Below are positions 22,026 through 36,638 of a stretch of 64,000 nt of DNA, piece after piece. This DNA is from Parasedimentitalea huanghaiensis (GTDB taxonomy: Bacteria > Pseudomonadota > Alphaproteobacteria > Rhodobacterales > Rhodobacteraceae). Each line of letters begins with the position of its first letter. The stretch's first letter is position 1. Location: contig NZ_WQLV01000005.1 of assembly GCF_009753675.1 (NCBI RefSeq), positions 186,001 to 250,000 of the forward strand, written 5' to 3'. Position numbers and translations under genes: made by a program. Below the pieces are notes generated by a model. The model searched no databases and was not told the DNA's origin. It worked only from the letters and a program-made list of their open reading frames with translations.

Positions 22026-23012
22026 ATGAACTTGGCTATTCGAACCAATATAGATGAAATTTGCGCTGAGCGTGCAATCAATTGGCCAGTCGGGGTTCTA
22101 AATCAGAGCCCGTTCTGGAGCGAGGATCCTGTGGCGGGTGTCCAAGGGAGTTGGCTCAGCAGAGATTGGCTGCATCTTGCGCCGATGCTTGGGGTCAATT
22201 TTTCCGATTTGGTGCTACAGACACGGTTACCAGCCAATTTAGCAGCCACTGATTTCCTGACAGAAGCTGGTGCGTTATATACGACGGGCAGTGAGGAGCA
22301 GCCTGTAGTGGGTGGAGTTCCAGCTATTGGTGGTGTTTTCAGTGTGCTCCAGCACGCAAGGGCTTTGGCCTGTGACCTCGGAGCGTTTCGTGAAGGTAGT
22401 GACCCGATTGAATTGACCTCGCCACAGATCCGCCAGAAGTTTTCGCAACACACCATCAGTGTTGCGGCGCCCAGCAATATCGGCCTGGCCGTCGGTGTGG
22501 CTGCACGGGCCTTGGGATTTCAGGCGGAAGTGCATCTGGCTGCCTCTGCGCCACAATGGAAAATTGATGCATTGCGCGCACTTGGGGCTACTGTGGCTTG
22601 CCATTTGGGGCATTTCCCCGACGCGGTCCGAGTTGTGCAGGCTCAGGCCGAAGCTGATCCGTCGGTGTTCTATGTAGGGGATGTGAACGAGCCTCTGCTA
22701 GCGGTTGGGTATGACGCGATGGCACTTGGATTACAGGCGCGACTTGTTCTGCACGGGGTATCGGTCAACCGCGACACGCCGCTGTTTTTGTATTTCCCCA
22801 AGAAAAGTCTGTATGGGCAACTCGCTTCCGGAATGGATGCTGCCGCGAGCCGAATTTTCGGTGACGACCTGCGTTGCATTCATGATGTACCAAAACCCGA
22901 CAATACTATGTCTGATACAGTAGCCAGTGACGATCAAAAGCAACTTAATGGTTCGACAAGGGGTATTGCTGGAGGCACAGATCGAGCAACCATTGTCGTT
23001 TGGACATTCTGA
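22026..23012 (+). CDS. D-serine dehydratase-like protein without catalytic lysine
   Basis: The 328-residue frame aligns by eye with E. coli DsdA over most of its length. Matching parts are SPQIRQKFSQHTISVAAPSN against the SPEFKQFFSQ region, ALGFQAEVHLAASAPQWK, and DPSVFYVGDVNEPLLAVGY. The PLP-lysine motif SIKARGG of DsdA is replaced by GVPAIGG, with Pro99 where Lys118 should be. The SxGN phosphate element is altered, and the glycine-rich loop after FLYFP reads KKSLYGQLASG. About 100 C-terminal residues are missing. A DsdA reaction is therefore not expected: it is either a pseudoenzyme or a decaying gene with an open frame. The start ATG has only a distant GAAGGA. It stands apart from the abm operon by 208 bases. 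Confidence 0.6.
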   Translation: MNLAIRTNIDEICAERAINWPVGVLNQSPFWSEDPVAGVQGSWLSRDWLHLAPMLGVNFSDLVLQTRLPANLAATDFLTEAGALYTTGSEEQPVVGGVPAIGGVFSVLQHARALACDLGAFREGSDPIELTSPQIRQKFSQHTISVAAPSNIGLAVGVAARALGFQAEVHLAASAPQWKIDALRALGATVACHLGHFPDAVRVVQAQAEADPSVFYVGDVNEPLLAVGYDAMALGLQARLVLHGVSVNRDTPLFLYFPKKSLYGQLASGMDAAASRIFGDDLRCIHDVPKPDNTMSDTVASDDQKQLNGSTRGIAGGTDRATIVVWTF

Positions 23013-24696: not shown

Positions 24697-25632
24697 TCAA
24701 TCCCCTAGGGGTTGGGGCCCGGTTCTGCCATGGTATGCGGTGAGGGAAGCCCGGATTCGGCGCAGGTTTTCCGTTGTTTCGTGCGCCATCTCTTGGGCAA
24801 CAGACATGGCAAGAGCGTCGACGATGATCATGTGAATGTAGCGCGAAGATGTTGGTTTGTGGATGTCTCGGTCTTCGGGAAGGTCCACCAGGATCGGGAC
24901 CGAACAGACATCAGCCAGTTTGGTTCCAGGCTTGGTAATGCAGATGGTCGTAGCGCCGTAATTGTTTGCGATTTTGGCGGCACCAATAATGGCGTCTGCT
25001 TCGCCACTGGCAGAGACCAGGAATAATACATCGCCTTCCTTTAGTGTGGCTGCGCGCATTTGCAGGGTGTAGCTGTCGCTGGTCGACATGGATGGAATAC
25101 CCAACCGGAAAAATCGATTGGCCGCTTCCTGTGCTACAGTCGAGGATCCACCGCCAATCCCGGCAAATAGTAGGTGGCGGGTGTCCAAGAGGGCGGCTTT
25201 GGCGCAATCTAGAACAAACGGGTCGATCTGACGGCGCATGACGTTTGCTGTCGCATTAATGGCGTTGAGGATCTGGTCAATGGCGCTGTCACCCGCTGTC
25301 GGACCAGCTTTCGGATCCGCCGACAAATATTGCATGCTCACCGCAAGGTTTTGCGCCAATCTCAGCTTGAATTCACGGTACCCGTCGCAGCCAAGCGTCC
25401 GGCAGAACCGGATCACCGTTGGGGTGCTGACATTGCACTGACCTGCCAGCTCGGCAATTGTCATCGCGCTGATGTCTTCCAGATGGTCCTTGACGTAATT
25501 CGCTACTCTTTGCTCTTGGGTCGCCAGCTTGCCATCGTGGTGATACAGCGCTGAGATAACGTCCGCGACACCGGGCTGACCTTTTTGTGGCGGTAGATCA
25601 ACGCCGTTCGTTTCAGTGGAATCAGCGGGCAC
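24697..25632 (-). CDS. RpiR-family regulator (HTH + SIS domain)
   Basis: The 311-residue protein has an N-terminal HTH_6 domain (QEQRVANYVKDHLEDISAMT, CNVSTPTVIRFCRTLGCDG) and a C-terminal SIS sugar-phosphate-binding domain (LFAGIGGGSSTVAQEAANRF, LFLVSASGEADAIIGAAK). RpiR/HexR proteins sense phosphosugars such as KDPG. GTG at 25632 is chosen because GAGGAG lies six bases upstream on its strand. An in-frame ATG at 25674 overlaps a candidate operator. It is divergent from the TRAP operon with three TGTAA-type sites between, so it very likely controls that operon and itself. Confidence 0.92.
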   Translation of the reverse strand: MPADSTETNGVDLPPQKGQPGVADVISALYHHDGKLATQEQRVANYVKDHLEDISAMTIAELAGQCNVSTPTVIRFCRTLGCDGYREFKLRLAQNLAVSMQYLSADPKAGPTAGDSAIDQILNAINATANVMRRQIDPFVLDCAKAALLDTRHLLFAGIGGGSSTVAQEAANRFFRLGIPSMSTSDSYTLQMRAATLKEGDVLFLVSASGEADAIIGAAKIANNYGATTICITKPGTKLADVCSVPILVDLPEDRDIHKPTSSRYIHMIIVDALAMSVAQEMAHETTENLRRIRASLTAYHGRTGPQPLGD

Positions 25633-25673
25633 TGTGCTCTCCTCAACTACATGCGGCCTGTAACTAAGATACA

Positions 25674-25796
25674 TATCAACTCTAATTACACAAGCAAAAG
25701 CCAAGTTTTCCCGTGGTTTGAGCGAAATGTGTAACTCCGTAACGAAATGGGCTTGATTTACGATGCGAGTCGCGACTTAATGTAACTCAATTACAT
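25674..25796. promoter_or_regulatory. Three RpiR/HexR-like operator sites
   Basis: The clearest site is ATGTAACTCAATTACAT at 25780-25796, a 17-bp palindrome that resembles the HexR consensus (TGTAAT-N-ATTACA). A second copy lies at 25674-25691 (TGTAATTAGAGTTGATA on the reverse strand) and a weaker one at 25730-25745 (TGTAACTCCGTAACGA). They fill the divergent promoter of the RpiR gene and the TRAP operon. Confidence 0.65.
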
Positions 25797-25819
25797 GTTC
25801 GTTTCAGGGGAGGAAACAG

Positions 25820-26341
25820 GTGCGTAACTGGGCAGAAGTAACCAGTGCAAGGATCAACACTGTCGTCGAAGCTATTGTCGCAGCTTTGATGCTTGCTTTG
25901 GTTCTTGACGTCTGGTTGGGGGTGATGGACCGCTATTATTTCCATTGGCAATTGCCCTGGCCCGAGGTTCTGGCCCGCTATCTGATGATCTGGGCTGCGA
26001 TGCTGGCGGTGTCATCGGGTGTGGCCCGGCGGGACCATATTGGTCTGACAGCGTTTATTATGGCCATACCATTCAAGCTTCGCCGCGCCCTCCTGATCTG
26101 TATGGATCTGCTCGCTCTTGCGCTGTTTCTATACGTGGCCTGGTTTGGCATTGGATTTGCACAAAGCGGGGCTCCACGCCATGCGATGATTTTTGGGGCT
26201 AGCCTTGCCCCATTCTACGCAGCCATCCCAGCAGCGGCCTTCATGTCCTCCTTACAGCTCGTTCTCGTTCTATTGCGCGATCTGGGATCTCACATTGATG
26301 AACCGCCATTTGCCGATCATTTGGAGGAGGAGCTGCCATGA
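25820..26341 (+). CDS. TRAP transporter small permease (DctQ)
   Basis: The 173-residue membrane protein has four hydrophobic helices and the DctQ-typical WPEVLARYLMIWAAMLAVSSG followed by ARRDHIGLTAFI. It is the small integral subunit of a tripartite ATP-independent periplasmic transporter. The start is GTG 25820 with GGGGAGG upstream. The stop overlaps dctM by four bases. It opens the operon controlled by the RpiR regulator. Confidence 0.93.
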   Translation: MRNWAEVTSARINTVVEAIVAALMLALVLDVWLGVMDRYYFHWQLPWPEVLARYLMIWAAMLAVSSGVARRDHIGLTAFIMAIPFKLRRALLICMDLLALALFLYVAWFGIGFAQSGAPRHAMIFGASLAPFYAAIPAAAFMSSLQLVLVLLRDLGSHIDEPPFADHLEEELP

Positions 26342-27621
26342 TCGTTGCTATCTGTTTTGTCACGCTCGTCCTGTTTGGTATGCCAATTGGTTTTGCCATC
26401 GGCCTGGCAGGAGTTGTGGGCCTAATCGATATGGGCGGAACCCAGTTTCTGCAAATTGGCCCAAGCAAGATCTTCAACGGGCTGAATATTTTTCCGTTCC
26501 TGGCCATGCCATTCTTTATCCTGGCTGGTGAAATCATGAATGACATCGGCATCACAAGCCGCTTGGTCAAGCTGGCACAAGTGTTGGTGGGACGGTTTCG
26601 TGGTGGGCTGGCACATACCAATATGCTGGCGTCGGTGTTCTTTGCTGGGCTAACCGGTTCCGCTACTGCAGATGCTGCTGCCTTTGGTCGTACACTGGTC
26701 CCGGCGATGGTTAAAGAAGGCTATGATCGCGACTATGCCTGTGCGGTCACTGCGGCAGGGTCGATCATTGGGCCAACCATTCCGCCTTCAGGTCTAATGG
26801 TCGTCTATGGTTCGCTGATGGGCGTTTCGATTGCAGGACTGTTTGCTGCAGGGGTGTTGCCTGGACTGGTGATTTGTGTGGTCTGTATGGCGGTGATTGC
26901 CATTGGCGGTAAACGCGAAAATCTGCCCAAAGCTATTCGTGGTGCCAGTCCGCGTGAGATATGGGATACATTCGTGTCGTCATTAACTGCCTTGGCCATG
27001 CCGGTGATCATTCTGGGCGGTATCTTAGGTGGCATCGTGACGCCAACCGAAGCAGCATCCATTGCCGTGGCTTATGCCCTGTTCATTGGTATTTTTGTCT
27101 ACCGCACACTGACGTTTAAAGGGTTCTACGGCATGCTGGTACGCACGGCGCGTATCATGGGTGTGATTTTTGTTATCATCGCGTTTGCTGGCATTCTTGG
27201 CTGGTGGATGAGCTTTGAGCGTATCCCTCAGCTGATCGCCGAAACAGTGTTGGGCCTGTCCGACAATCGCTATGCTGTGATCGCAATTATCATTGGACTG
27301 TTGCTGGTTGTTGGCATGGTGATGGATATCACCGCGATCCTGATCATTCTGGCTCCGGTTCTGGTGCCTCTGACCGAACAGGTCGGGCTCGAGCCGATCC
27401 ATGCAGGCATTATCTTTGTTCTGGCACTCAATATCTCACTGATGACGCCACCGGTCGGGGCCTGCCTATTTGTTCTGTCGTCAGTCACCGGTGAAAAACT
27501 GGAACGCATTTCGATCAAGCTAATGCCGTTCCTGATTGCTGAAATTGCCATCCTGTTTGCCTTTGCCTTTTGGGAGGATGCCGCCCTTTGGCTGCCTCGC
27601 CTGCTTGGCTACGCACAATAA
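26338..27621 (+). CDS. TRAP transporter large permease (DctM)
   Basis: The 427-residue protein has about 12 membrane segments and the DctM/UctM signatures PFFILAGEIMNDIGI, FFAGLTGSATADAAAFG, IIGPTIPPSGLMVVYG and LALNISLMTPPVGACLFV. It is the Na+-coupled translocating subunit of the TRAP system. It is coupled to dctQ by ATGA and followed by dctP after 41 bp. Confidence 0.96.
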   Translation: MIVAICFVTLVLFGMPIGFAIGLAGVVGLIDMGGTQFLQIGPSKIFNGLNIFPFLAMPFFILAGEIMNDIGITSRLVKLAQVLVGRFRGGLAHTNMLASVFFAGLTGSATADAAAFGRTLVPAMVKEGYDRDYACAVTAAGSIIGPTIPPSGLMVVYGSLMGVSIAGLFAAGVLPGLVICVVCMAVIAIGGKRENLPKAIRGASPREIWDTFVSSLTALAMPVIILGGILGGIVTPTEAASIAVAYALFIGIFVYRTLTFKGFYGMLVRTARIMGVIFVIIAFAGILGWWMSFERIPQLIAETVLGLSDNRYAVIAIIIGLLLVVGMVMDITAILIILAPVLVPLTEQVGLEPIHAGIIFVLALNISLMTPPVGACLFVLSSVTGEKLERISIKLMPFLIAEIAILFAFAFWEDAALWLPRLLGYAQ

Positions 27622-27662
27622 CGACCAACCAAAATCAAAACCAAAACCAACTGGAGGAAACT

Positions 27663-28703
27663 ATGAAAACGATTATCAAAGGTCTGGCCATTGCCGCGAC
27701 GATGACAGCCGGCAGTGCCTATGCTGAAGGTGGCGTGATCAAATTCGGCCATGACAACAAAACCGACCCGTTTGAAAACCCGGCACACGCCTGTACCGCT
27801 GTGTTCTCGAACATTGTCACCGCTGACACCAACGGCTCTGTTTCAGTCGAAGTCTTTGGCTCCAACCAATTGGGGTCCGCGTCTGAGCACGTTCAGCAGG
27901 TCCGCGATGGTATCATTCAGGCAACCTTGACATCCACAGGTGCGCTGGCCAGCTACTACCCGCGTATTGACGTGCTGAATCTGCCGTTTGCTTTCGACGG
28001 CAATGCATCGACCTACGAGGTTTTTGACGGCGCATTTGGCAAAGAACTAGCAGCCGATATTGAAGCCGAACTGGGTGATGTGGTTGTGCTTGGCTTCCCG
28101 GACACAGGTGGCTTCTTTGCAGTGACCAACTCCAAACACGCCATTGCCGATTTGAAGGACTTTGACGGTATCCGCATTCGTACAATGACCCTACCGTCGC
28201 ACCAGAAAATCATGCAGTCGCTGGGTGCCGAAGCCTATCCTTTGTCCTGGGGTGAAGTATATTCGGGTCTGCAAACTGGTGTGATCGACGGTCAGATGAA
28301 CCCGGTTCCAATCATCTCTTTTGCAAACTTCGCCGAAGTACAAAAGTACATGACACTGACCAACCACCTGTTCTCGCCTTATACTTTCATGATCAACCGC
28401 GCGTTTTATGAAGGTCTGAGTGACAGTGAGCAGGCGACGTTGCATACCGCAGCTGAAAACTGTGTTGCTGCAAGTCGTGGGTTGTCGCGCATCATCGAAG
28501 CTTCTGATCGTGGTCTCGCAGGCCTGATGGATCAGATCGAAGTGACGGCTTTGTCCGCCGACCAGCGTGCCGCCATGGCCGGAGCTGCTCAGCCAGCCTT
28601 TGAGGCCCACGTTGCCGAAAACATGGATGCCCGCGCAGGCGAGCTGTTGGACATGTTCAAGTCTGAAGTTGCTGCTGCAAACGCTGCTGCTTACCTCAAT
28701 TAA
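27663..28703 (+). CDS. TRAP transporter substrate-binding protein (DctP)
   Basis: The 346-residue protein starts MKTIIKGLAIAATMTAGSAYA, a Sec signal peptide. It has the DctP fold elements LGSASEHVQQVRDGIIQATL, VLNLPFAFDG, FDGIRIRTM and SLGAEAYPLSWGEVYSGLQTG. The arginine in the GIRIRTM segment is the one that usually binds the carboxylate of the ligand, so an acidic substrate is likely, in keeping with a sugar acid. GGAGG precedes the ATG at 27663. Two strong hairpins follow the stop, which may raise the level of this protein over the downstream enzymes. Confidence 0.94.
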   Translation: MKTIIKGLAIAATMTAGSAYAEGGVIKFGHDNKTDPFENPAHACTAVFSNIVTADTNGSVSVEVFGSNQLGSASEHVQQVRDGIIQATLTSTGALASYYPRIDVLNLPFAFDGNASTYEVFDGAFGKELAADIEAELGDVVVLGFPDTGGFFAVTNSKHAIADLKDFDGIRIRTMTLPSHQKIMQSLGAEAYPLSWGEVYSGLQTGVIDGQMNPVPIISFANFAEVQKYMTLTNHLFSPYTFMINRAFYEGLSDSEQATLHTAAENCVAASRGLSRIIEASDRGLAGLMDQIEVTALSADQRAAMAGAAQPAFEAHVAENMDARAGELLDMFKSEVAAANAAAYLN

Positions 28704-28707
28704 CTCA

Positions 28708-28767
28708 CTCCCACCCCACCTGCGGCAACGTGGGTGGGGAGCGGGCAGGTATCCACTGGATACCTGC
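28708..28767 (+). other. Two intercistronic hairpins after dctP
   Basis: The first stem (28708-28719 with 28730-28741) pairs over 12 positions with two mismatches. The second is a perfect 10-bp stem GCAGGTATCC / GGATACCTGC with loop ACT (28745-28767). They lie between the binding protein and the enzyme genes. Partial termination or 3'-end protection would favour binding-protein synthesis. Confidence 0.6.
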
Positions 28768-28795
28768 CTACCTATTCAGACTAAAGGATCGAAAC

Positions 28796-30262
28796 ATGCG
28801 GGTCTTCTGCGCCTCGATTGCTACCGAAACCAACACGTTTTCGCCTCTACGCACCGATTTTACCGATTTCGAACAAAGCTTCTATGCGGCTCCGGGGGAC
28901 CATCCGGAAACGCCGACCCTCTGTAGCGCCGTGTTTCCGGCCCTCCGTAAACGTGCGCGAGCCGGAGAGATTGAGTTGGTTGAGGGCACTGCCACATGGG
29001 CTGAACCCGGTGGCTTGGTCAACGCGCGAACCTGGGCGCGACTGCGCGATGAAGTGCTGGACCAGCTGCGCGCTGCCCTTCCGGTTGACGCTGTCGTACT
29101 GGGTTTACATGGCGCGATGATTGCCGATGGCTGCGTCGATTGCGAAGGTGTTCTGATTGAAGCCGTACGTCAGATTACGGGTCCCAAGACCAAGATCGGG
29201 GTTACCTTCGATCCGCACAGTCACCTTAGCGCACGTCGGGTCGAAAACGCTGATGTTATTACTGTATTTAAAGAATTTCCGCACACCGACTTTGCCGAAA
29301 CCGGTGAAAACTGTGTTGATCTGACCCTACGAGCCGCGCGTTCAGAAATCACGCCAACCTTGTCGGTGTTTGATGTGCGTATGATTGATGTGCTGCCAAC
29401 TAGCCGCGCCCCAATGCGCGGGTTCGTGGATAAAATGCTAGCCCTAGAGGCGGATGGATCTGCGCTTTCCATATCCACCATTCACGGCTTCATGGCCGGG
29501 GACTCGCCGGATTTGGGGGCCAAAATTATCGTGATTTCGGACGGCAACCAAAATGCTGGCGATAAGCTTGCCCATGATCTGGGGATGGAGTTGTTTTCAT
29601 TTCGTGGAACAACCAAGCCAGAATTTTTGACCGTCGAGGATGCGCTCACGGCTGCCAACGATGCAAAGGCAGGCCCGGTTGTGATCGCGGATGTCTGGGA
29701 TAATCCTGGAGGCGGCGTTGCTGGGGATTCCACAATTCTGCTCCGCGCCGCGCTTGAGATGAAGTTAAAATCTCTGGCGCTGGCCACAATCTGGGACCCG
29801 ATGGCTGTGCGCCTGTGTCATGCTGCCGGAGAAGGGGCACAACTTGACCTGCGTTTTGGTGGCAAAACCTCTGCCTTTGCCGGTGCTCCAATTGATGCCG
29901 CGGTAACGGTGGTGAAGGTTGCCAGCGATGCGGTGCAGAGCTTTGGTGCGTCTGTTGTTCCCTTGGGCGACTGTGCGGTAATTCGCATTGATGAGGTTGA
30001 GGTGGTGTTGAACTCCAACCGCTCTCAGGCGTTTTCGCCGGACTTGTTCACCAATCTTGGGGTCGATATCGGGTCCAGAAAAATATTGGTTGTGAAATCG
30101 ACTAATCATTTCCACGGGGCATTTGCCACGGTCGCCTCTGAAATTCTATATGCCGCGGTTAACGGGCCGTATCCCAATGACCCGACACAAACCAAATACA
30201 CCCGACTAACGCGGCCTTTGTGGCCGATCGCTGCAAATCCATTCGAGGTTGAGAACGCATGA
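28796..30262 (+). CDS. M81-family metallohydrolase (MlrC-like)
   Basis: The 488-residue protein belongs to the microcystinase C family (DUF1485 plus MlrC C-terminal domain). It begins MRVFCASIATETNTFSPLRT. Asp139, His141 and His163 (TFDPHSH and FPHTD) have the same spacing as the MlrC zinc ligands Asp167, His169 and His191 as I recall them, so a metal site should be intact. WDNPGGGVAGDSTILLRAAL marks the C-terminal half. MlrC cleaves an amide bond of linear microcystin. In this operon a small N-acyl or lactam amide of the imported acid is the more likely substrate. ATG 28796 has AAAGGA upstream. It overlaps the next start by four bases. Confidence 0.9.
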   Translation: MRVFCASIATETNTFSPLRTDFTDFEQSFYAAPGDHPETPTLCSAVFPALRKRARAGEIELVEGTATWAEPGGLVNARTWARLRDEVLDQLRAALPVDAVVLGLHGAMIADGCVDCEGVLIEAVRQITGPKTKIGVTFDPHSHLSARRVENADVITVFKEFPHTDFAETGENCVDLTLRAARSEITPTLSVFDVRMIDVLPTSRAPMRGFVDKMLALEADGSALSISTIHGFMAGDSPDLGAKIIVISDGNQNAGDKLAHDLGMELFSFRGTTKPEFLTVEDALTAANDAKAGPVVIADVWDNPGGGVAGDSTILLRAALEMKLKSLALATIWDPMAVRLCHAAGEGAQLDLRFGGKTSAFAGAPIDAAVTVVKVASDAVQSFGASVVPLGDCAVIRIDEVEVVLNSNRSQAFSPDLFTNLGVDIGSRKILVVKSTNHFHGAFATVASEILYAAVNGPYPNDPTQTKYTRLTRPLWPIAANPFEVENA

Positions 30263-31314
30263 CCTTTCCCGATATTGACACGCCTGCGGTGCTGGTTGAT
30301 CTGGACATTGCCGAGGCAAACATCGACCGATTTCAAGCCCATTGTGATGAATATGGCCTGAAGCTGCGCCCACATATTAAAACTCACAAATTGCCGAGAT
30401 TGGCGCAACGGCAGATACAGGCCGGGGCGATTGGCATCACATGCCAAAAGGTCAGCGAAGCCGAAGCAATGATTTCTGAAGGTGGCATCGAAGATGTGCT
30501 GATCACTTTCAACATTTTTGGCGCAGACAAACTGTCCCGGCTGAAAAAGCTGGCTCAAAAGGTTCGTCTCAGTGTCGTGGCCGACAACGTCGCGACAATT
30601 GACGGGCTGGCTGGGACCTTTTGTGACGCGGATGTACCGCTTACTATTCTTGTCGAATGTGACACGGGAGGTGCGCGTTGCGGGGTGACCACTAGTGAGG
30701 CAGCGGCTGAATTGGCCGCTTACATTGATGGCCAAAGCGGACTGATGTTTGGTGGGTTAATGACCTACCCGCCGACGGGCCAAGAACCTGCAGTTCAGGA
30801 CTGGCTGACCAAAGCGAAAAAGATGATTGAGACTTCGGGGGTATCGGTTCCGATAATTTCAAACGGTGGGTCTCCCGGCATGTGGCAAGCGCAAGATGTA
30901 CCGGTAGCCACCGAATACCGGATTGGGACCTATGTCTATAACGATCGTTCACTGCAGGATCGTGGCGTTTGTACTTGGGATGATTGCGCTCTTAGTGTCT
31001 TGGTCACTGTTATTTCCGTCCCATCCGCGGGGCGCGCCGTTGTTGATGCAGGAACCAAGGTTTTGACTTCGGATCTGTTAGGGCTGGATGGGCATGGTCA
31101 TGTATTGGGTCGCCCCGACATCAAAGTGGCGGGCCTGTCCGAAGAACATGGAGTGCTGACAGCGGATGATATCAACTTAAACGTCGGCGACCGCCTTCGC
31201 ATTATTCCAAACCACGTCTGTGTGGTCAGCAATATGTTGGACGAGGTACAGTTGATCCGAGGGGGAACAGCTCTGGGTGCAAGTCCAGTGGTGGCTCGGG
31301 GCAAGGTGTGGTGA
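30259..31314 (+). CDS. DSD1/D-threonine aldolase-fold PLP enzyme
   Basis: The 351-residue protein has an alanine-racemase-like PLP barrel with Lys41 in RPHIKTHK and a C-terminal D-serine dehydratase-like domain. His319 and Cys321 (PNHVCVV) match the zinc pair of eukaryotic-type D-serine dehydratase. Relatives include D-threonine aldolase, D-threo-3-hydroxyaspartate dehydratase and, as I recall, Pseudomonas D-glucosaminate dehydratase. The neighbouring KdgK-type kinase and RidA favour a dehydratase making a 2-keto-3-deoxy acid through an enamine. The start overlaps the M81 stop (ATGA). Confidence 0.87.
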   Translation: MTFPDIDTPAVLVDLDIAEANIDRFQAHCDEYGLKLRPHIKTHKLPRLAQRQIQAGAIGITCQKVSEAEAMISEGGIEDVLITFNIFGADKLSRLKKLAQKVRLSVVADNVATIDGLAGTFCDADVPLTILVECDTGGARCGVTTSEAAAELAAYIDGQSGLMFGGLMTYPPTGQEPAVQDWLTKAKKMIETSGVSVPIISNGGSPGMWQAQDVPVATEYRIGTYVYNDRSLQDRGVCTWDDCALSVLVTVISVPSAGRAVVDAGTKVLTSDLLGLDGHGHVLGRPDIKVAGLSEEHGVLTADDINLNVGDRLRIIPNHVCVVSNMLDEVQLIRGGTALGASPVVARGKVW

Positions 31315-31318
31315 TCAG

Positions 31319-32209
31319 ATGAGTGCGCTCATATGTCTTGGCGAACCACTTTGTGAATTGAATGCTCAGCCTGATGGTTCTTTTCGGGCGGGCTTTGGCG
31401 GGGATGTGTCCAACGTTGCCATTGCAGCCGCAAGACAGGGTGTGGACGTTGGTCTGATCTCGCGGGTTGGAGATGATCCATTTGGACGTGATCTTTGTCA
31501 GCTATGGCAGCGTGAAGGGGTTTCGGCAGATCATGTAAAGGTGGTGCCGGGGCAGGAAACCGGGATCTATTTTGTGTTTCATGATGCGGAGGGGCATCAC
31601 TTTGTCTATCGGCGCAAGGGCTCTGCCGCCAGCCAGATGACGGCAGATGACCTGCCTGACGACGCGATTGCCAAGGCCCGTATGTTCTATTCTTCAGGCA
31701 TTGGGCTTGGGGTCAGTAGCTGCCTGCGCGACGCAACTTTTCAGGCCGTGGCGACTGCGCGGAAAAACAACGTGGCGGTGGCATTCGACCCGAACTTGCG
31801 CACTGCGCTTTGGTCACTGGAACAGGCACGCTCGGTGACACATGACCTAATGCAATGTTGCGACATTGCCTTGCCAGGGTTGGATGACGCGCGCCAGTTG
31901 ACTGGCTTGCACAACCCCGAGGACATTATCGCATTCTACCATGATCTGGGGGTCAAAATTGTTGCCCTGACACTGGGTGCAGATGGTGTATCCGTTTCTG
32001 GTGGCGATGATGTTGTTACCATTCCCGGTACACCAGTGCAGGCCAAAGACGCAACCGGAGCAGGCGACTGTTTCAATGGGCTCTTTCTGGCGAACTATCT
32101 GCGTGACGGCGATATCTTGAACGCTGCAAAAATCGCCAACAGCGGAGCAGCCTTGTCCACCACTGGCTATGGCGCGGTTGATTCAATCCCGTTCAATCAC
32201 ACACTCTAA
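31319..32209 (+). CDS. kdgK: PfkB-family sugar kinase, 2-keto-3-deoxygluconate kinase-like
   Basis: The 296-residue ribokinase-fold protein has the N-terminal GFGGDVSNVAIAAARQGVDV motif (PfkB signature 1). The C-terminal DATGAGDCFNGLF carries catalytic Asp250. VAFDPNLRTALWS, after which the family binds the keto acid, resembles KdgK rather than ribokinase or fructokinase. It would phosphorylate 2-keto-3-deoxygluconate to KDPG, the classic effector of HexR-type RpiR regulators. ATG 31319 is five bases after the previous stop. Specificity among 2-keto-3-deoxy acids is not certain. Confidence 0.85.
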   Translation: MSALICLGEPLCELNAQPDGSFRAGFGGDVSNVAIAAARQGVDVGLISRVGDDPFGRDLCQLWQREGVSADHVKVVPGQETGIYFVFHDAEGHHFVYRRKGSAASQMTADDLPDDAIAKARMFYSSGIGLGVSSCLRDATFQAVATARKNNVAVAFDPNLRTALWSLEQARSVTHDLMQCCDIALPGLDDARQLTGLHNPEDIIAFYHDLGVKIVALTLGADGVSVSGGDDVVTIPGTPVQAKDATGAGDCFNGLFLANYLRDGDILNAAKIANSGAALSTTGYGAVDSIPFNHTL

Positions 32210-32230
32210 ACTTTAAAAGGACTATCTAAA

Positions 32231-32629
32231 ATGAGTAGCAAGAAAATCGTGCGTTTAGGCGATGATCGTACCGGGGCAGGTGGCCAGGCCCTGCCATTTG
32301 CGCCAGCGGTTCGTGCCGGTGATTTTGTCTTTATTTCCGGTCAGGTGGCCATGAAGGAAAACGGCGAAATAGAAGCCGGTGGTATCGAAAGTCAGACCCG
32401 CAAAACTATGGAGAACCTGATTGCCGCTTTGGCGCTGGCTGATTGCACATTGGAGGACATCGCCAAGGTTGGCGTTTGGTTGGATGATCCGCGTGACTTC
32501 TGGACCTTCAACCGGGTCTACGCGAGTTATTTCCCCAATGGTGGTCCTGCCCGGTCGACCGTGCGCTCGCAGATCATGGTTGATGCCAAAGTTGAGATCG
32601 ACGCGATGGTTTATAAACCGTTGGACTAA
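32231..32629 (+). CDS. RidA-family enamine/imine deaminase
   Basis: The 132-residue YjgF/YER057c/UK114 protein has the RidA core FISGQVAMKENGEI, GPARSTVRSQIM with the substrate-carboxylate Arg108, and Glu122 in VEIDAMV. RidA proteins hydrolyse reactive enamines and imines from PLP dehydratases. It closes an operon whose PLP enzyme would release such an intermediate, which supports a dehydratase role for the gene at 30259. AAAAGGA precedes the ATG. Confidence 0.93.
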   Translation: MSSKKIVRLGDDRTGAGGQALPFAPAVRAGDFVFISGQVAMKENGEIEAGGIESQTRKTMENLIAALALADCTLEDIAKVGVWLDDPRDFWTFNRVYASYFPNGGPARSTVRSQIMVDAKVEIDAMVYKPLD

Positions 32630-32779: not shown

Positions 32780-32801
32780 GCCTAATAATTTGGAGAGACC
32801 C

Positions 32802-33956
32802 ATGACAGTCAGTCTTCTGACACGGGGTCTTTGCTCCGCTGCCGCAGCTACTGCGATTTCTTTCGCATCCGCCACGTTCGCTTTGGCCGAGACCGTAACC
32901 ATAACTGATATCGCCGGCCGTACGGTCGAAGTCGAAAAGAACCCACAAAAAGTTGTTCTGGGCGAAGGTCGGATGATTTATTCGATCGCGCTGTTAGACA
33001 GTGACAACCCATTCCAGCGTATCGTCGGTTGGAAAGACGACATGGTCAAATATGACCCGGATGCTTACCGTAAATATCAGGCCGTCTTCCCCGAAGCTGC
33101 TGACATTCCGAGTTTTGGCAGCCCATATGCTGACGAATGGAACCTCGAGTCGGTGATTTCACTGGGTACCGAAGTGGTACTGATGAACCTTGGCAACCTG
33201 ATGAAGGCCCAGGAAAGCGGTATCATTGAGAAGCTGGAAGAGGCTGGTGTTGCTACTGTTTTTGTCGATTTCCGGCAGGACCCTACTCAGAATACAGTGC
33301 CTAGTATCCAGTTGTTGGGACGGATCTTTGATAAGCGGGACGAGGCAGATACCTTTACCGACTATTATCAGGCGCAGATGAAGAAAATCTACAGCCGCGT
33401 TGAATCCATCCCCGCAGAAGACCGCCCGATTGTGTTTATCGAGCGCGCGGCAGGCTATAATCCGGCCAAGTGTTGTGGTACCTTTGGAGCCGCAAATTTG
33501 GGACGTCTGGTTGATCTGGCCGGTGGTCGCAACTGGGGTTCGCTTAAATTCCCTGGGTTCAAAACCGCTGTGAGCCTGGAAGCTATTTTTGCCGACGACC
33601 CTGAAGTGATCATCGGAACTGGTGCAAACTGGGCAGAGGCAAATCCGGCAACCGCTGCGGTTTTGTTCGGCTATGAAGCCAGTGAAGACATGGTTCAAGA
33701 GCGTCTTGGCGCACTGGCTGCCCGTGAAGGCTGGTCAGATCTGTCGGCGGTCAAGAATGGTAATTTCCACTCAATCTATCACCAGTTCTACAACAGTCCT
33801 TACCACTTTGTAGCGATGCAAGCTTTTGCCAAATGGTTGCATCCTGATCTGTTCGCGGATCTGGATCCAGAAGCCACGATGATTGAACTGCATGAGAAGT
33901 TCCTGCCAATCGATTACTCCGGCGTTTTCTGGGGCAGCCTATCAGCTGGCGGTTGA
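32802..33956 (+). CDS. FecB/BtuF-type ABC substrate-binding protein
   Basis: The 384-residue protein has a signal peptide ending near ATFALAE and then two lobes of the periplasmic metal-chelate-binding fold (TVTITDIAGRTVEVEKNPQKVV start, FKTAVSLEAIFADDPEVIIG). It should capture a siderophore, corrinoid or other metal chelate. An unusual CC pair is found in NPAKCCGTFGAANLG. ATG 32802 has GGAGAG upstream; an in-frame start four codons earlier is less likely. It heads the operon with FecCD, an ATPase and a methyltransferase. The ligand is unknown. Confidence 0.88.
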   Translation: MTVSLLTRGLCSAAAATAISFASATFALAETVTITDIAGRTVEVEKNPQKVVLGEGRMIYSIALLDSDNPFQRIVGWKDDMVKYDPDAYRKYQAVFPEAADIPSFGSPYADEWNLESVISLGTEVVLMNLGNLMKAQESGIIEKLEEAGVATVFVDFRQDPTQNTVPSIQLLGRIFDKRDEADTFTDYYQAQMKKIYSRVESIPAEDRPIVFIERAAGYNPAKCCGTFGAANLGRLVDLAGGRNWGSLKFPGFKTAVSLEAIFADDPEVIIGTGANWAEANPATAAVLFGYEASEDMVQERLGALAAREGWSDLSAVKNGNFHSIYHQFYNSPYHFVAMQAFAKWLHPDLFADLDPEATMIELHEKFLPIDYSGVFWGSLSAGG

Positions 33957-33971
33957 GCCCTTAGGTCTATT

Positions 33972-33993
33972 GGTTCCGCCTTTGGGCGGGACC
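33972..33993 (+). other. Intercistronic hairpin after the binding protein
   Basis: GGTTCCGCC and GGCGGGACC form a 9-bp stem (one G-T pair) with loop TTTG. It sits between the binding-protein stop and the permease start, as in the TRAP operon. Confidence 0.55.
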
Positions 33994-34018
33994 ATTCATC
34001 CAATTAGAGATCTTCAAT

Positions 34019-35080
34019 ATGTCAATTAATGTGAGCCCCGCAGAGATGCGGCAGGCCTATGCATCCCAAGTGATGCGGCGCTATGTGATGATTGCCTGCG
34101 TGGCAGGCCTTCTCCTTCTCAGCTTCGTCCTCGACGTAGCTACAGGCCCTGGTCACTACCCGTTGTCTACCGTCCTCGAAGTCTTTGCAGACCCAATGTC
34201 GCACGGCGTGCGTCTCAAGGTGATTGTATGGGACTATCGTTTGCCAGTGGCTGTGACCGCTGTGCTGGTCGGCGCGTTGCTGGCTGTGGCCGGTGCGCAG
34301 ATGCAGACGATCCTGAACAACCCTTTGGCTGAGCCCTTTACCCTTGGTGTGTCAGCTGCGGCCAGTTTTGGCGCATCGCTGGCCATCGTTCTGGGATTTA
34401 GCATCGTCCCTGCGGTGGGCGGGCTTTTGGTCACCACAAATGCCTTCTTCTTTGCGCTGTTGACCTGCGGCTTCATCCTGTTTGCGACCCGCTTAAAAGG
34501 TGTCGGATCAGAAACCATGATCCTGTTTGGGATTGCGATTTTCTTTACGTTTTCTGCCTTGTTGGCCCTGATGCAGTACATGGCGTCTGAAGATCAAATT
34601 GCGCGGATCGTGTTTTGGATGATGGGCTCATTAAGCCGGGCAAGTTGGGAGAAAATCTCACTTGGCACACTGTTGCTTGGGGTCGCGATCCCTTTCAGCT
34701 TGCTGAGAACCTGGCCTATGACGGCGCTGCGGATGGGCGAGGCAACGGCAGAAAGTCTGGGTGTTGATGTGGCGCGTCTTCGGGTCGAGATGCTGATTTG
34801 CATTTCGCTGCTGGCAGCGACGGCGGTGTCCTTTGTTGGAACCGTTGGCTTCATTGGTCTTGTTGGGCCTCATATTGCGCGCCTGTTGGTGGGCGAGGAT
34901 CAACGGTTCTTTGTCCCACTTTCAGCGCTGGTCGGGGCATTGGTGCTTTCGCTGACCTCGTTGATTTCGAAATCCATCACACCCGGGATCATTTACCCGA
35001 TCGGCATTATTACGTCGCTGATTGGTGTTCCGGTTTTCATTTCCATCATCCTCAGTTCACGACGGGAGAAGCTATCATGA
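34019..35080 (+). CDS. FecCD-family ABC permease
   Basis: The 353-residue protein has about ten membrane helices. FecCD signatures are VGALLAVAGAQMQTILNNPLAEP and the coupling segment FVGTVGFIGLVGPHIARLLVG. It forms the homodimeric channel of a siderophore/cobalamin-type importer. The start ATG follows the hairpin after the binding-protein gene. The stop overlaps the ATPase start (ATGA). The C-terminal SSRREKLS is cytoplasmic. Confidence 0.95.
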   Translation: MSINVSPAEMRQAYASQVMRRYVMIACVAGLLLLSFVLDVATGPGHYPLSTVLEVFADPMSHGVRLKVIVWDYRLPVAVTAVLVGALLAVAGAQMQTILNNPLAEPFTLGVSAAASFGASLAIVLGFSIVPAVGGLLVTTNAFFFALLTCGFILFATRLKGVGSETMILFGIAIFFTFSALLALMQYMASEDQIARIVFWMMGSLSRASWEKISLGTLLLGVAIPFSLLRTWPMTALRMGEATAESLGVDVARLRVEMLICISLLAATAVSFVGTVGFIGLVGPHIARLLVGEDQRFFVPLSALVGALVLSLTSLISKSITPGIIYPIGIITSLIGVPVFISIILSSRREKLS

Positions 35081-35850
35081 CCCTAACGATCGAGCATCTG
35101 GCGGCCGGGTATGGCAACCGTACAGTTCTGAGCGATATCTCGGTGCCAGAAATTGAAGACGGGGCATTTGTGGGACTCATCGGGCCCAATGCGTCAGGAA
35201 AATCTACTTTGTTCAAAACCTTGGCGGGCCTAATCCCGGCTCGTGCAGGGACGATCCGGTTGAATGATGATGATGTTACACATATGCGTCGCCGGGACCG
35301 GTCCCAGCGGTTCGGCTATATGCCACAGGCCTTTGGCTGCAATGCATTGCTGACAGTGTTCGAAAGTGTGTTGTTGGCATTAAAACAAACCTCCGGATGG
35401 CGGGTCGAGGCTGAAAATCTGGATCAGGTCTCTGATATCCTTGCCGCATTAGGTCTGTCGCATTTGTCTAATCGCGGTATCGCTGATCTCAGCGGTGGTC
35501 AGGCACAGATGGTGGCGGTGGCCCAAACGCTGGTCCGCGCGCCGGATGTGATTTTGTTGGATGAACCAACCAGTGCCTTGGATTTACACCATCAGTTGTC
35601 GATCATGACATCAATTAAAACGGAGGTCAGACGGCATAGACCAGTGGTCATTGCGGCCCTGCATGATCTGAATCTTGCTGCAAAATTTTGTGACCGGTTG
35701 ATCCTGTTGCGAGACGGGAAAATTCTAGCGGATGGGACGCCTGAAACCATCCTTGCACTGTCAGAAATTGGCGAGACCTATAAGGTGGAAACGGACTTGG
35801 AACGAACCACACGAGGTGCGCTCTACGTTGACGCACGTCTTTCAGCGTGA
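35077..35850 (+). CDS. ABC importer ATP-binding protein (FecE type)
   Basis: The 257-residue ATPase has Walker A GPNASGKST, Q-loop YMPQAFG, signature LSGGQAQMVAVAQ, Walker B VILLDEPTSALD and the H-loop ALHDLNLA. These are typical of metal-chelate importers (COG1120). It pairs with the FecCD permease upstream and is translationally coupled to it. The stop overlaps the methyltransferase start (TGATG), so all four proteins come from one transcript. Confidence 0.96.
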   Translation: MTLTIEHLAAGYGNRTVLSDISVPEIEDGAFVGLIGPNASGKSTLFKTLAGLIPARAGTIRLNDDDVTHMRRRDRSQRFGYMPQAFGCNALLTVFESVLLALKQTSGWRVEAENLDQVSDILAALGLSHLSNRGIADLSGGQAQMVAVAQTLVRAPDVILLDEPTSALDLHHQLSIMTSIKTEVRRHRPVVIAALHDLNLAAKFCDRLILLRDGKILADGTPETILALSEIGETYKVETDLERTTRGALYVDARLSA

Positions 35851-36638
35851 TGGATATTCGTGGGCATAATTTTGACCTGAAAGAAGAAATTCGAAGCTAT
35901 TGGTCGGATCGTGCAGCCACGTTTGATGATAGCCCTTCGCATCTTATTGAAAATCAGTACGGATTAGCCGTATGGCAGAATTTTATTCGTCGCTCATTTG
36001 AGCTTGGGCCGGACCAAATGCTGGTCGGAAAGCAGGTGCTTGATATTGCATGCGGCACAGGTGAGATCAGCCGGGTACTGTGCAGTCTTGGTGCTGAGGT
36101 CGTGGGGCTGGATTTCTCCGAAAAAATGCATGACAGAGCTAAAGAGAAGCTCATGGGGAAGTCGTGGACACCGTTGCTGTGCGATGCAGAAAACTTGTTA
36201 GGAGTAGCTGACGATGCGTTTGACTTTGCTGTAACACGACACCTCGCTTGGACACTCACCAAGCCAGAGAAAGCATATGCGGAATGGCGTCGTGTTTTAA
36301 AGCCAGGAGGGCGTCTGTTGCTCGTTGATGGCAACTGGGAACAGGGCCATTCGTTTTTGTATCGGTTGCGGCGCCAAATTGCTGACTTCCTTTCTCCGCT
36401 CCCGGAAAAATCTCCAGACGAGACGACCAAAGATCAAAGGATCCGCAAGCAACTGCCATACCGAAACGGGCTCACTCTGGAACACCTTCGCCATGACCTG
36501 ATTCAAGCGGGGTTTGTAATCGTGCAGAAGGTTAGTGTATCCACACTTTATGGGCAGGGAATGAAAGCCTGGCCTCTTTCTGTGCGACTGCGACAAAGTA
36601 GTGAAAATCGGTTTGCGCTGGTCTGTACCGCGTCTTGA
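35850..36638 (+). CDS. SAM-dependent class I methyltransferase
   Basis: The 262-residue protein has motif I VLDIACGTGEISRVL, an acidic loop VVGLDFSEKM, and the post-motif VLKPGGRLLLVDGNW, as in UbiE/methyltransferase-11 proteins. The C-terminal 100 residues are helical and basic. It overlaps the ABC ATPase stop, so it belongs functionally to the importer. It may modify the imported chelate or a chelator made elsewhere; there is no direct evidence for either. ATG 35850 is preferred to the GTG three bases earlier. Confidence 0.88.
   Translation: MDIRGHNFDLKEEIRSYWSDRAATFDDSPSHLIENQYGLAVWQNFIRRSFELGPDQMLVGKQVLDIACGTGEISRVLCSLGAEVVGLDFSEKMHDRAKEKLMGKSWTPLLCDAENLLGVADDAFDFAVTRHLAWTLTKPEKAYAEWRRVLKPGGRLLLVDGNWEQGHSFLYRLRRQIADFLSPLPEKSPDETTKDQRIRKQLPYRNGLTLEHLRHDLIQAGFVIVQKVSVSTLYGQGMKAWPLSVRLRQSSENRFALVCTAS

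Follow-up and report, generated by a model that had tools for sequence, protein, structure and literature searches.

What is the substrate of an operon that joins a tripartite ATP-independent periplasmic (TRAP) importer to an M81 hydrolase, a pyridoxal phosphate (PLP) enzyme, a sugar-acid kinase and RidA? The question is raised by positions 24697..32629 of a 64,000-nucleotide stretch of the Parasedimentitalea huanghaiensis genome (contig NZ_WQLV01000005.1, positions 186,001 to 250,000), hereafter called the window. Eight genes are confirmed there: the minus strand carries the gene for an RpiR regulator, and the plus strand, divergently, carries dctQ, dctM, dctP, the M81 gene, the PLP gene, the kinase gene and ridA. 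As a sequence-only reading of this DNA had claimed, the genes are in place and all eight proteins belong to the expected families above Pfam cut-offs (Table 1). There are 4-base overlaps between dctQ and dctM and between the M81 and PLP genes. The complete order is found again in loci of Phaeobacter, Parasedimentitalea, Roseobacter, Tritonibacter and Labrenzia, and is far beyond chance. We consider it likely that the operon serves to scavenge 2-acetamido-2-deoxy-D-gluconate (N-acetylglucosaminate, GlcNAc1A), and two of the enzymes that probably degrade this acid have either no relationship or a remote one to their counterparts in the only pathway known. The proposed substrate, all of the reactions and control by 2-keto-3-deoxy-6-phosphogluconate (KDPG) are inferred from gene context, relatedness and motifs, by which gluco- and other hexosaminates look alike.

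The known pathway is that of the ong cluster of Pseudoalteromonas prydzensis, which converts GlcNAc1A to glucosaminate, 2-keto-3-deoxygluconate (KDG) and then KDPG (PMC9537276). According to that paper, GlcNAc1A, the acid terminus that lytic polysaccharide monooxygenases (LPMOs) leave on chitin, enters by a sodium symporter; OngB, which has a D-aminoacylase fold, deacetylates it, OngC, a fold-type III PLP enzyme, deaminates the product to KDG, KdgK phosphorylates KDG, and part of the cluster is under the RpiR repressor OngR. The OngB deacetylase is also treated in PMC12017989. The chain of uptake, deacylation, dehydration/deamination, RidA, KDG kinase and KDPG put forward in the sequence-only reading is, in its logic, this published route. 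The pathway logic is thus already in print, and what is new is the presence in it of M81 enzymes and enzymes of the D-threonine aldolase (D-TA) family, in Alphaproteobacteria, and of M81 in ong-type clusters of Rheinheimera.

Compared with our ong reference, a megaplasmid cluster of P. shioyasakiensis (L130), the window operon likewise has an RpiR regulator, RidA, a putative KDG-type kinase, a predicted deacylase and a fold-type III PLP enzyme as predicted deaminase, and its predicted intermediates GlcNAc1A, glucosaminate, KDG and KDPG are identical. For the regulator and RidA the likeness is at the family level only, with 37% identity between the RpiR protein and OngR and 43% between RidA and OngD. 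However, an M81 metallohydrolase stands in place of OngB, the PLP enzyme is of the D-TA family (24% identical to OngC and in a separate tree group), TRAP DctQMP replaces the sodium:solute symporter OngIT, and the operon lacks GH20, TonB receptor and LPMO genes and has a HexR-like operator. No match better than E 0.06 was obtained when OngB was compared by blast with the operon proteins, and OngB and the M81 protein do not match. No close OngB was found in the organism's own genome either, where matches reach at most 27 bits apart from one distant amidohydrolase. Direct membership in the ong family was rejected, there being no OngB-type deacetylase, OngC-clade PLP enzyme or symporter, yet the operon most likely works as the ong cluster does.

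The clade of the window M81 is tied to GlcNAc1A by its occurrence in ong-type clusters of Rheinheimera that lack OngB. Named genomes were scanned with an M81 alignment, giving 80 loci that are the best 80 of at least 567 confirmed and are 54-86% identical to the window protein. They were not drawn at random, some share a contig with other loci examined here, and the genomes are partly drafts or metagenome-assembled genomes (MAGs), so that absences are provisional. Neighbourhood maps were built from simple open reading frame (ORF) calls with blastp labels rather than with a gene finder, and in the initial phylum-level searches neighbourhoods were taken for part of the listed places, picked by identity and interest. 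Four of the 80 loci are ong-type by content: those of Rheinheimera sp. A13L, R. pacifica and R. aquimaris (L191, L199 and L210) and of a gammaproteobacterial MAG (L192). Each encodes OngC (43-46%), OngD (71-75%) and the GH20 enzyme OngA (36-38%) together with an M81 protein (55-56%) from the same clade as that of the window. An OngR-like RpiR protein is labelled in all four (47-48% identity in three), and a sodium:solute symporter and a TonB receptor were recognised by Pfam in R. pacifica, the one locus checked for them. The OngB label is absent from the fetched DNA of all four loci, and a search of the three Rheinheimera genomes found no close OngB (best match 40% over 83 residues, 23 bits) with a query that is authentic, scoring 823 bits against the solved PpOngB (9kb1). 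AA10 LPMO genes are present in all three Rheinheimera genomes versus none of eight other M81 genomes tested. Two Rheinheimera loci (L199, 11493-14717; L210, 11456-14623) encode the GH20 enzyme as a fusion with an SMP-30/gluconolactonase domain, which would suit an aldonolactone.

Three other loci that seemed to connect these systems were set aside. The link offered by L095, where a 52% identical M81 gene lies beside one for an OngC-like enzyme, was dropped on account of a neighbouring ORF that by eye resembles a peptide-binding protein. A Ponticoccus locus (L098) with an OngC-like gene near TRAP and M81 genes was not counted, as the same block occurs in Agrobacterium, where the fetched DNA has no M81 gene. 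In a Vibrio plasmid locus (L110), chosen by its kinase as a possible ong cluster, the kinase alone matched the references.

The M81 protein carries intact zinc ligands at E11, H105, D139, H141 and H163, and the metal ligands are kept in all 80 relatives, as the sequence-only reading had led us to expect of the window protein. The ligand list (Glu, His, Asp, His, His) is taken from PMC12474180, which also describes the characterised M81 enzyme MlrC as cleaving the Adda-Glu bond of microcystin products. Although the window protein shares with MlrC the two-domain fold (7ylq: 37% identity, Foldseek E 1.5e-52, TM-score 0.86) and identical metal ligands, it scores 374.3 bits against a cut-off of 999 for the microcystinase MlrC model, it belongs to a clade with amino-sugar contexts, and the other mlr gene families are absent from the operon by a Pfam scan of its proteins. 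A fold search with the predicted model (pLDDT 88) gave clear matches to MlrC and 3iuu only. In the M81 tree, the Rheinheimera proteins fall with that of the window in one clade of 39 rows (support 100/98), apart from 13 paralogs (98/99), and a PLP gene of the window kind lies within 9 kb of the M81 gene in 47 of the 80 named loci.

Several further observations concern these M81 loci. A second, distant M81 paralog (27-33%) adjoins the GH20 gene in clusters of the GH20/SDR type described below (L042, L044, L045, L048 and L090). Three uncultured marine alphaproteobacterial genomes (L181, L184 and L188) carry an M81 gene of the same clade with no labelled partner gene in the fetched DNA. A protein of about 160 residues without a Pfam or NCBIfam match (L106, 11488-11970; also L042, L043, L079, L090, L195 and others) recurs beside the M81 and PLP genes in sugar-importer, GH20 and some TRAP clusters, and looks like a conserved extra partner.

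The PLP enzyme carries the motif HVC (HxC), where aldolases have HVD or HCD, the D-threo-3-hydroxyaspartate dehydratase 3wqc has HAC and OngC has HPC. In alignments to PDB structures, the aldolases 4v15, 7dib and 6qkb have Asp as second metal ligand, and 3wqc and the window protein have Cys; we take the aligned residues to be metal ligands. HxC occurs in 45 of 47 PLP relatives, the region being missing from the other two ORFs, whereas a BhcC-like paralog in the same genome (L128) has HxD. The window protein shares fold, domains and HxC site with the dehydratase; with BhcC and D-threonine aldolase it shares the fold-type III fold and domains but not the HxD metal site. Based upon HxC it should thus be a dehydratase, which fits a RidA partner. 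The possibility that the PLP enzyme is only an aldolase, which the sequence-only reading had named as fatal to its own proposal, is made unlikely by this motif. In the PLP tree, OngC falls in a separate, well supported group, although the tree program flagged long branches for the OngC rows. A D-glucosaminate dehydratase of this fold, attributed earlier to Pseudomonas, was not found in the open literature searched; the documented enzyme of the fold is OngC of Pseudoalteromonas, which also deaminates D-Ser and D-Thr (PMC9537276). Breadth of this kind is therefore no disproof of a sugar role for the window enzyme.

R173 of DctP aligns with an Arg of 4p47 and 7bbr and is invariant in all 19 aligned DctP proteins, so that the earlier claim of a retained carboxylate arginine holds. 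These two structures are also the best sequence matches in the PDB, 7bbr being second (144.6 bits). The latter is a sugar-acid TRAP binder from Advenella mimigardefordensis, with which DctP shares the family and the conserved Arg but only 26% identity in the structural alignment. The DctP N-terminus looks by eye like a signal peptide.

Importers vary among the 80 relatives: 32 loci have TRAP genes, 21 a sugar-type ATP-binding cassette (ABC) importer, 11 a peptide-type ABC importer, four are ong-type and 12 fall elsewhere. The classes rest on chosen thresholds, which placed the peptide-ABC-like Stappia locus L164 among the others, and the peptide-type label comes from weak blastp matches without Pfam. 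A short-chain dehydrogenase/reductase (SDR), counted at 45% identity or more to two references that both come from loci of the sugar-ABC kind (L099 and L106), accompanies all 21 sugar-ABC loci, none of the 32 TRAP, 11 peptide-ABC or four ong loci, and three of the 12 others (sugar-ABC versus TRAP, naive Fisher p 3e-15, with shared ancestry ignored). This is the pattern that would arise if cells obtained the acid either by internal synthesis or by import. The simplest reading would be that the acid itself is taken up in the TRAP and ong types, whereas the sugar-ABC types take up an N-acetylhexosamine and oxidise it first. Clusters in Rhizobium and Rhodobacteraceae-family genomes that combine GH20, SDR, RpiR, RidA, M81 and PLP genes fit this oxidise-first arrangement. 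GH20 genes also flank the TRAP cluster in two of the 32 TRAP loci, the close relatives L137 and L139, the GH20 of L137 falling below our GH20 threshold at 34.8%. The own genome has a single GH20 gene, on another contig (contig C5, L222 9899-11869).

With regard to importers, two side observations are possible traces of exchange. In a Ruegeria MAG (L145, 11425-15800), sugar-ABC-like transporter genes lie between the M81 and PLP genes of a TRAP-type cluster, and in a Roseovarius MAG (L154, 11845-12929) the only ORFs seen at that place are a short one resembling an ABC ATPase and a shortened one for the kinase. Separately, the GH20 gene of the own genome sits among ORFs that by blastp and by eye resemble peptide-type ABC genes, perhaps a chitooligosaccharide uptake locus.

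The palindrome at 25781, which precedes dctQ, is the sole exact TGTAAN5TTACA in the window. If up to one mismatch is allowed, 25 of the 32 TRAP loci have such a site near dctQ and 22 have one near the RpiR 5' end; these sites number 38 in the 22.4 kb around that 5' end versus six in 645 kb elsewhere. One relative, L138, carries TGTAATTAAATTACA, the HexR motif quoted in PMC11906056. In Pseudomonas, the apo form of HexR represses and the protein binds KDPG, as stated in PMC5489143. The earlier suggestion of a HexR-type regulator that senses KDPG gains from the HexR-like site, present here and enriched at this place in TRAP relatives; the protein itself has HexR as its best NCBIfam model but scores 181.8 bits against a cut-off of 296. 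A near-operator at 25659-25673 lies inside the 5' end of the regulator ORF, so the true start is probably further in.

The kinase has as its best model NF040938, a KDG/2-keto-3-deoxygalactonate (KDGal) kinase (190.8 bits, below the cut-off of 400), and is 27% identical to the ong KdgK. Two KDG-type subfamilies fill this slot, those of the window, L034 and L039 being nearest to NF040938 and those of L033 and L079 to NF052444, all below cut-off. Among four kinase relatives of 46-49% identity that were examined, those of Ruegeria and Roseivivax lie beside an IlvD/Edd dehydratase gene, and that of Ruegeria also beside Eda. KDPG aldolase could be supplied from elsewhere, as the own genome has three matches to that family, two of them strong. 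As for RidA, ongD is required for growth of P. prydzensis on GlcNAc1A, and that report gives the role of RidA there as unknown (PMC9537276).

These components suggest the following scheme. The TRAP transporter would import GlcNAc1A, and the M81 protein, as a non-orthologous stand-in for OngB, would remove acetate to give D-glucosaminate, a role suggested by the Rheinheimera clusters and paralleled by MlrC, whose cleavage likewise exposes the amine of a glutamate residue. The D-TA-family enzyme, a distant stand-in for OngC, would then eliminate water from glucosaminate, and RidA would hydrolyse the resulting enamine/imine to KDG and ammonia. The PfkB kinase would make KDPG, which a KDPG aldolase from another locus of the genome would cleave, and the HexR-type regulator would repress the operon via the palindrome until released by KDPG. 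In relatives with a neutral-sugar importer, the SDR may first oxidise an N-acetylhexosamine to the same acid.

A broader and more tentative proposal, to which we give somewhat less than an even chance, is that one M81 clade constitutes a new aldonate de-N-acetylase family, independent of OngB and serving two metabolic modules. The first would scavenge GlcNAc1A made by LPMOs (the TRAP, peptide-ABC and Rheinheimera ong types). The second, in Rhizobiales and Rhodobacterales with sugar-ABC, GH20 and SDR genes, would be a non-phosphorylating oxidative N-acetylhexosamine route that runs from N-acetylglucosamine (GlcNAc) through lactone and acid to glucosaminate and KDG, bypassing NagK, NagA and NagB.

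A number of findings weigh against a GlcNAc1A pathway in the window. The Rheinheimera evidence comes from one lineage and therefore from one replacement event, the placement of its M81 proteins beside the TRAP group is weak in the tree (85/69), and the kinase gene is absent from the fetched DNA of all four ong-type loci. The OngC-like neighbour in L095 is accompanied by a likely peptide importer. The own genome lacks an AA10 LPMO and, well away from the operon, encodes an amidohydrolase with remote similarity to OngB (25%, 48.5 bits). The fold search with the DctP model (mean pLDDT 73) does not discriminate ligands, ectoine binders scoring equally high. The PLP enzyme has just 24% identity to OngC, and its relatives of 60-62% in Sinorhizobium, Pararhizobium and Shinella, which fall inside the window's TRAP-linked tree group, have no M81 or KDG-type kinase gene in the fetched flanks, with an amino-acid ABC importer beside two of the three. 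Even among TRAP loci, the PLP gene is found in 24 of 32 and the kinase gene in 11 of 32; the kinase is present in three of 11 peptide-ABC and none of 21 sugar-ABC loci. Two of the four kinase relatives examined, in Neorhizobium and Pantoea, adjoin RraA and dehydrogenase-like genes and have no Entner-Doudoroff neighbour. Operator sites are found in none of the 21 sugar-ABC or four ong loci and in five of nine peptide-ABC loci.

Some of these findings would suit an operon that degrades an N-acylated D-amino acid or a small D-amino-acid peptide, with the M81 protein as deacylase or peptidase, the PLP enzyme as a dehydratase of the D-serine/D-threonine type that supplies RidA, and the kinase in a side path. 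We regard this as unlikely. It would accommodate the amide bond cleaved by MlrC, the activity of OngC itself on D-Ser and D-Thr, the amino-acid importers (two of three) beside the 60-62% PLP relatives, all three without M81 in the fetched flanks, and the peptide-type ABC ATPases that, on a weak blastp label, apparently replace TRAP in 11 of the 80 relatives. However, neither KDG-type kinases, a HexR-like operator and GH20 neighbours nor the SDR/importer pattern and M81 in ong-type clusters without OngB would be expected of it. Alternatively, the same chemistry might act on another 2-acetamido aldonate, such as N-acetyl-galactosaminate, N-acetyl-mannosaminate or a C1-oxidised disaccharide acid. 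This is less likely still: GlcNAc1A has a known abundant source and pathway, and Rheinheimera has the LPMO and OngC of that pathway, even though the best model for the kinase is bifunctional for KDG and KDGal, GH20 enzymes act on both GlcNAc and N-acetylgalactosamine, and several importer types occur among relatives. Finally, a D-threonine or 3-hydroxyaspartate aldolase in glycolate/glyoxylate metabolism, suggested by a best PDB match to D-threonine aldolase and a sole NCBIfam match to BhcC, is very improbable and was rejected on the HxC motif; in addition, the BhcC score misses its cut-off (203 of 690 bits), a separate HxD paralog exists in the genome, and the other families of the operon differ from what we take to be the bhc partners.

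To our knowledge, little of the widespread M81 family has been characterised beyond MlrC. If GlcNAc1A is indeed the substrate, part of a family best known for an enzyme that breaks down a cyanobacterial toxin would gain a metabolic role. No role for M81 in amino-sugar or chitin catabolism was found among the papers listed from the open literature searched (for two of the queries the best 40 of 103 and the best 20 of 46), most subscription papers being outside its reach, in agreement with an earlier remark that the role of M81 here is undescribed. The two papers there that name the M81 family metallopeptidase concern microcystin and the drought response of Arthrobacter. PMC9537276 reports the complete ong pathway only from Gammaproteobacteria and one betaproteobacterium; if the proposal holds, marine and soil Alphaproteobacteria would possess the same oxidised-chitin pathway with other components, and bacteria that, like this one, have no AA10 LPMO would receive oxidised chitin by cross-feeding. 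An M81 deacetylase would also bear on Aeromonas, for which other deacetylases are left possible in PMC11653859.

Table 1. Features of the operon, in window coordinates. The starts of DctP, M81 and the kinase (the last probable) were set by eye and differ from those of the longest ORFs.
Feature	Position	Strand	Basis
RpiR/HexR-type regulator	24697..25704	-	Longest ORF; Pfam HTH_6 and SIS
HexR-like operator TGTAACTCAATTACA	25781..25795	.	Between regulator and dctQ
TRAP small permease DctQ	25820..26341	+	Pfam DctQ; 83-90% to L137 and L138
TRAP large permease DctM	26338..27621	+	Pfam DctM; TIGR00786 above cut-off
TRAP solute-binding protein DctP, predicted sugar-acid binder	27663..28703	+	Pfam DctP
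M81 (MlrC-like) metallohydrolase, predicted to deacetylate N-acetylglucosaminate in place of OngB	28796..30262	+	Pfam DUF1485 and MlrC_C
DSD1/D-TA-fold PLP enzyme, predicted D-glucosaminate ammonia-lyase yielding KDG	30259..31314	+	Pfam Ala_racemase_N and D-ser_dehydrat; HxC
PfkB kinase, predicted 2-keto-3-deoxygluconate kinase	31319..32209	+	Pfam PfkB; best NCBIfam model NF040938
RidA enamine/imine deaminase	32231..32629	+	Pfam Ribonuc_L-PSP

The next gene downstream, at 32790, is outside the operon; its best model is a ferrichrome/ferrioxamine binding protein, under that model's cut-off. It opens a plus-strand run (32790-36638) in which it is accompanied by ORFs that by eye resemble a permease, an ATPase and a methyltransferase, and in Shinella sp. 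WSC3-e (L133) a related D-TA gene likewise lies near siderophore uptake genes. On the other side, a plus-strand ORF of 328 residues at 22026-23012 resembles D-serine ammonia-lyase, covering positions 65-333 of a 444-position model with the C-terminal part gone, and is possibly a decayed dsdA.

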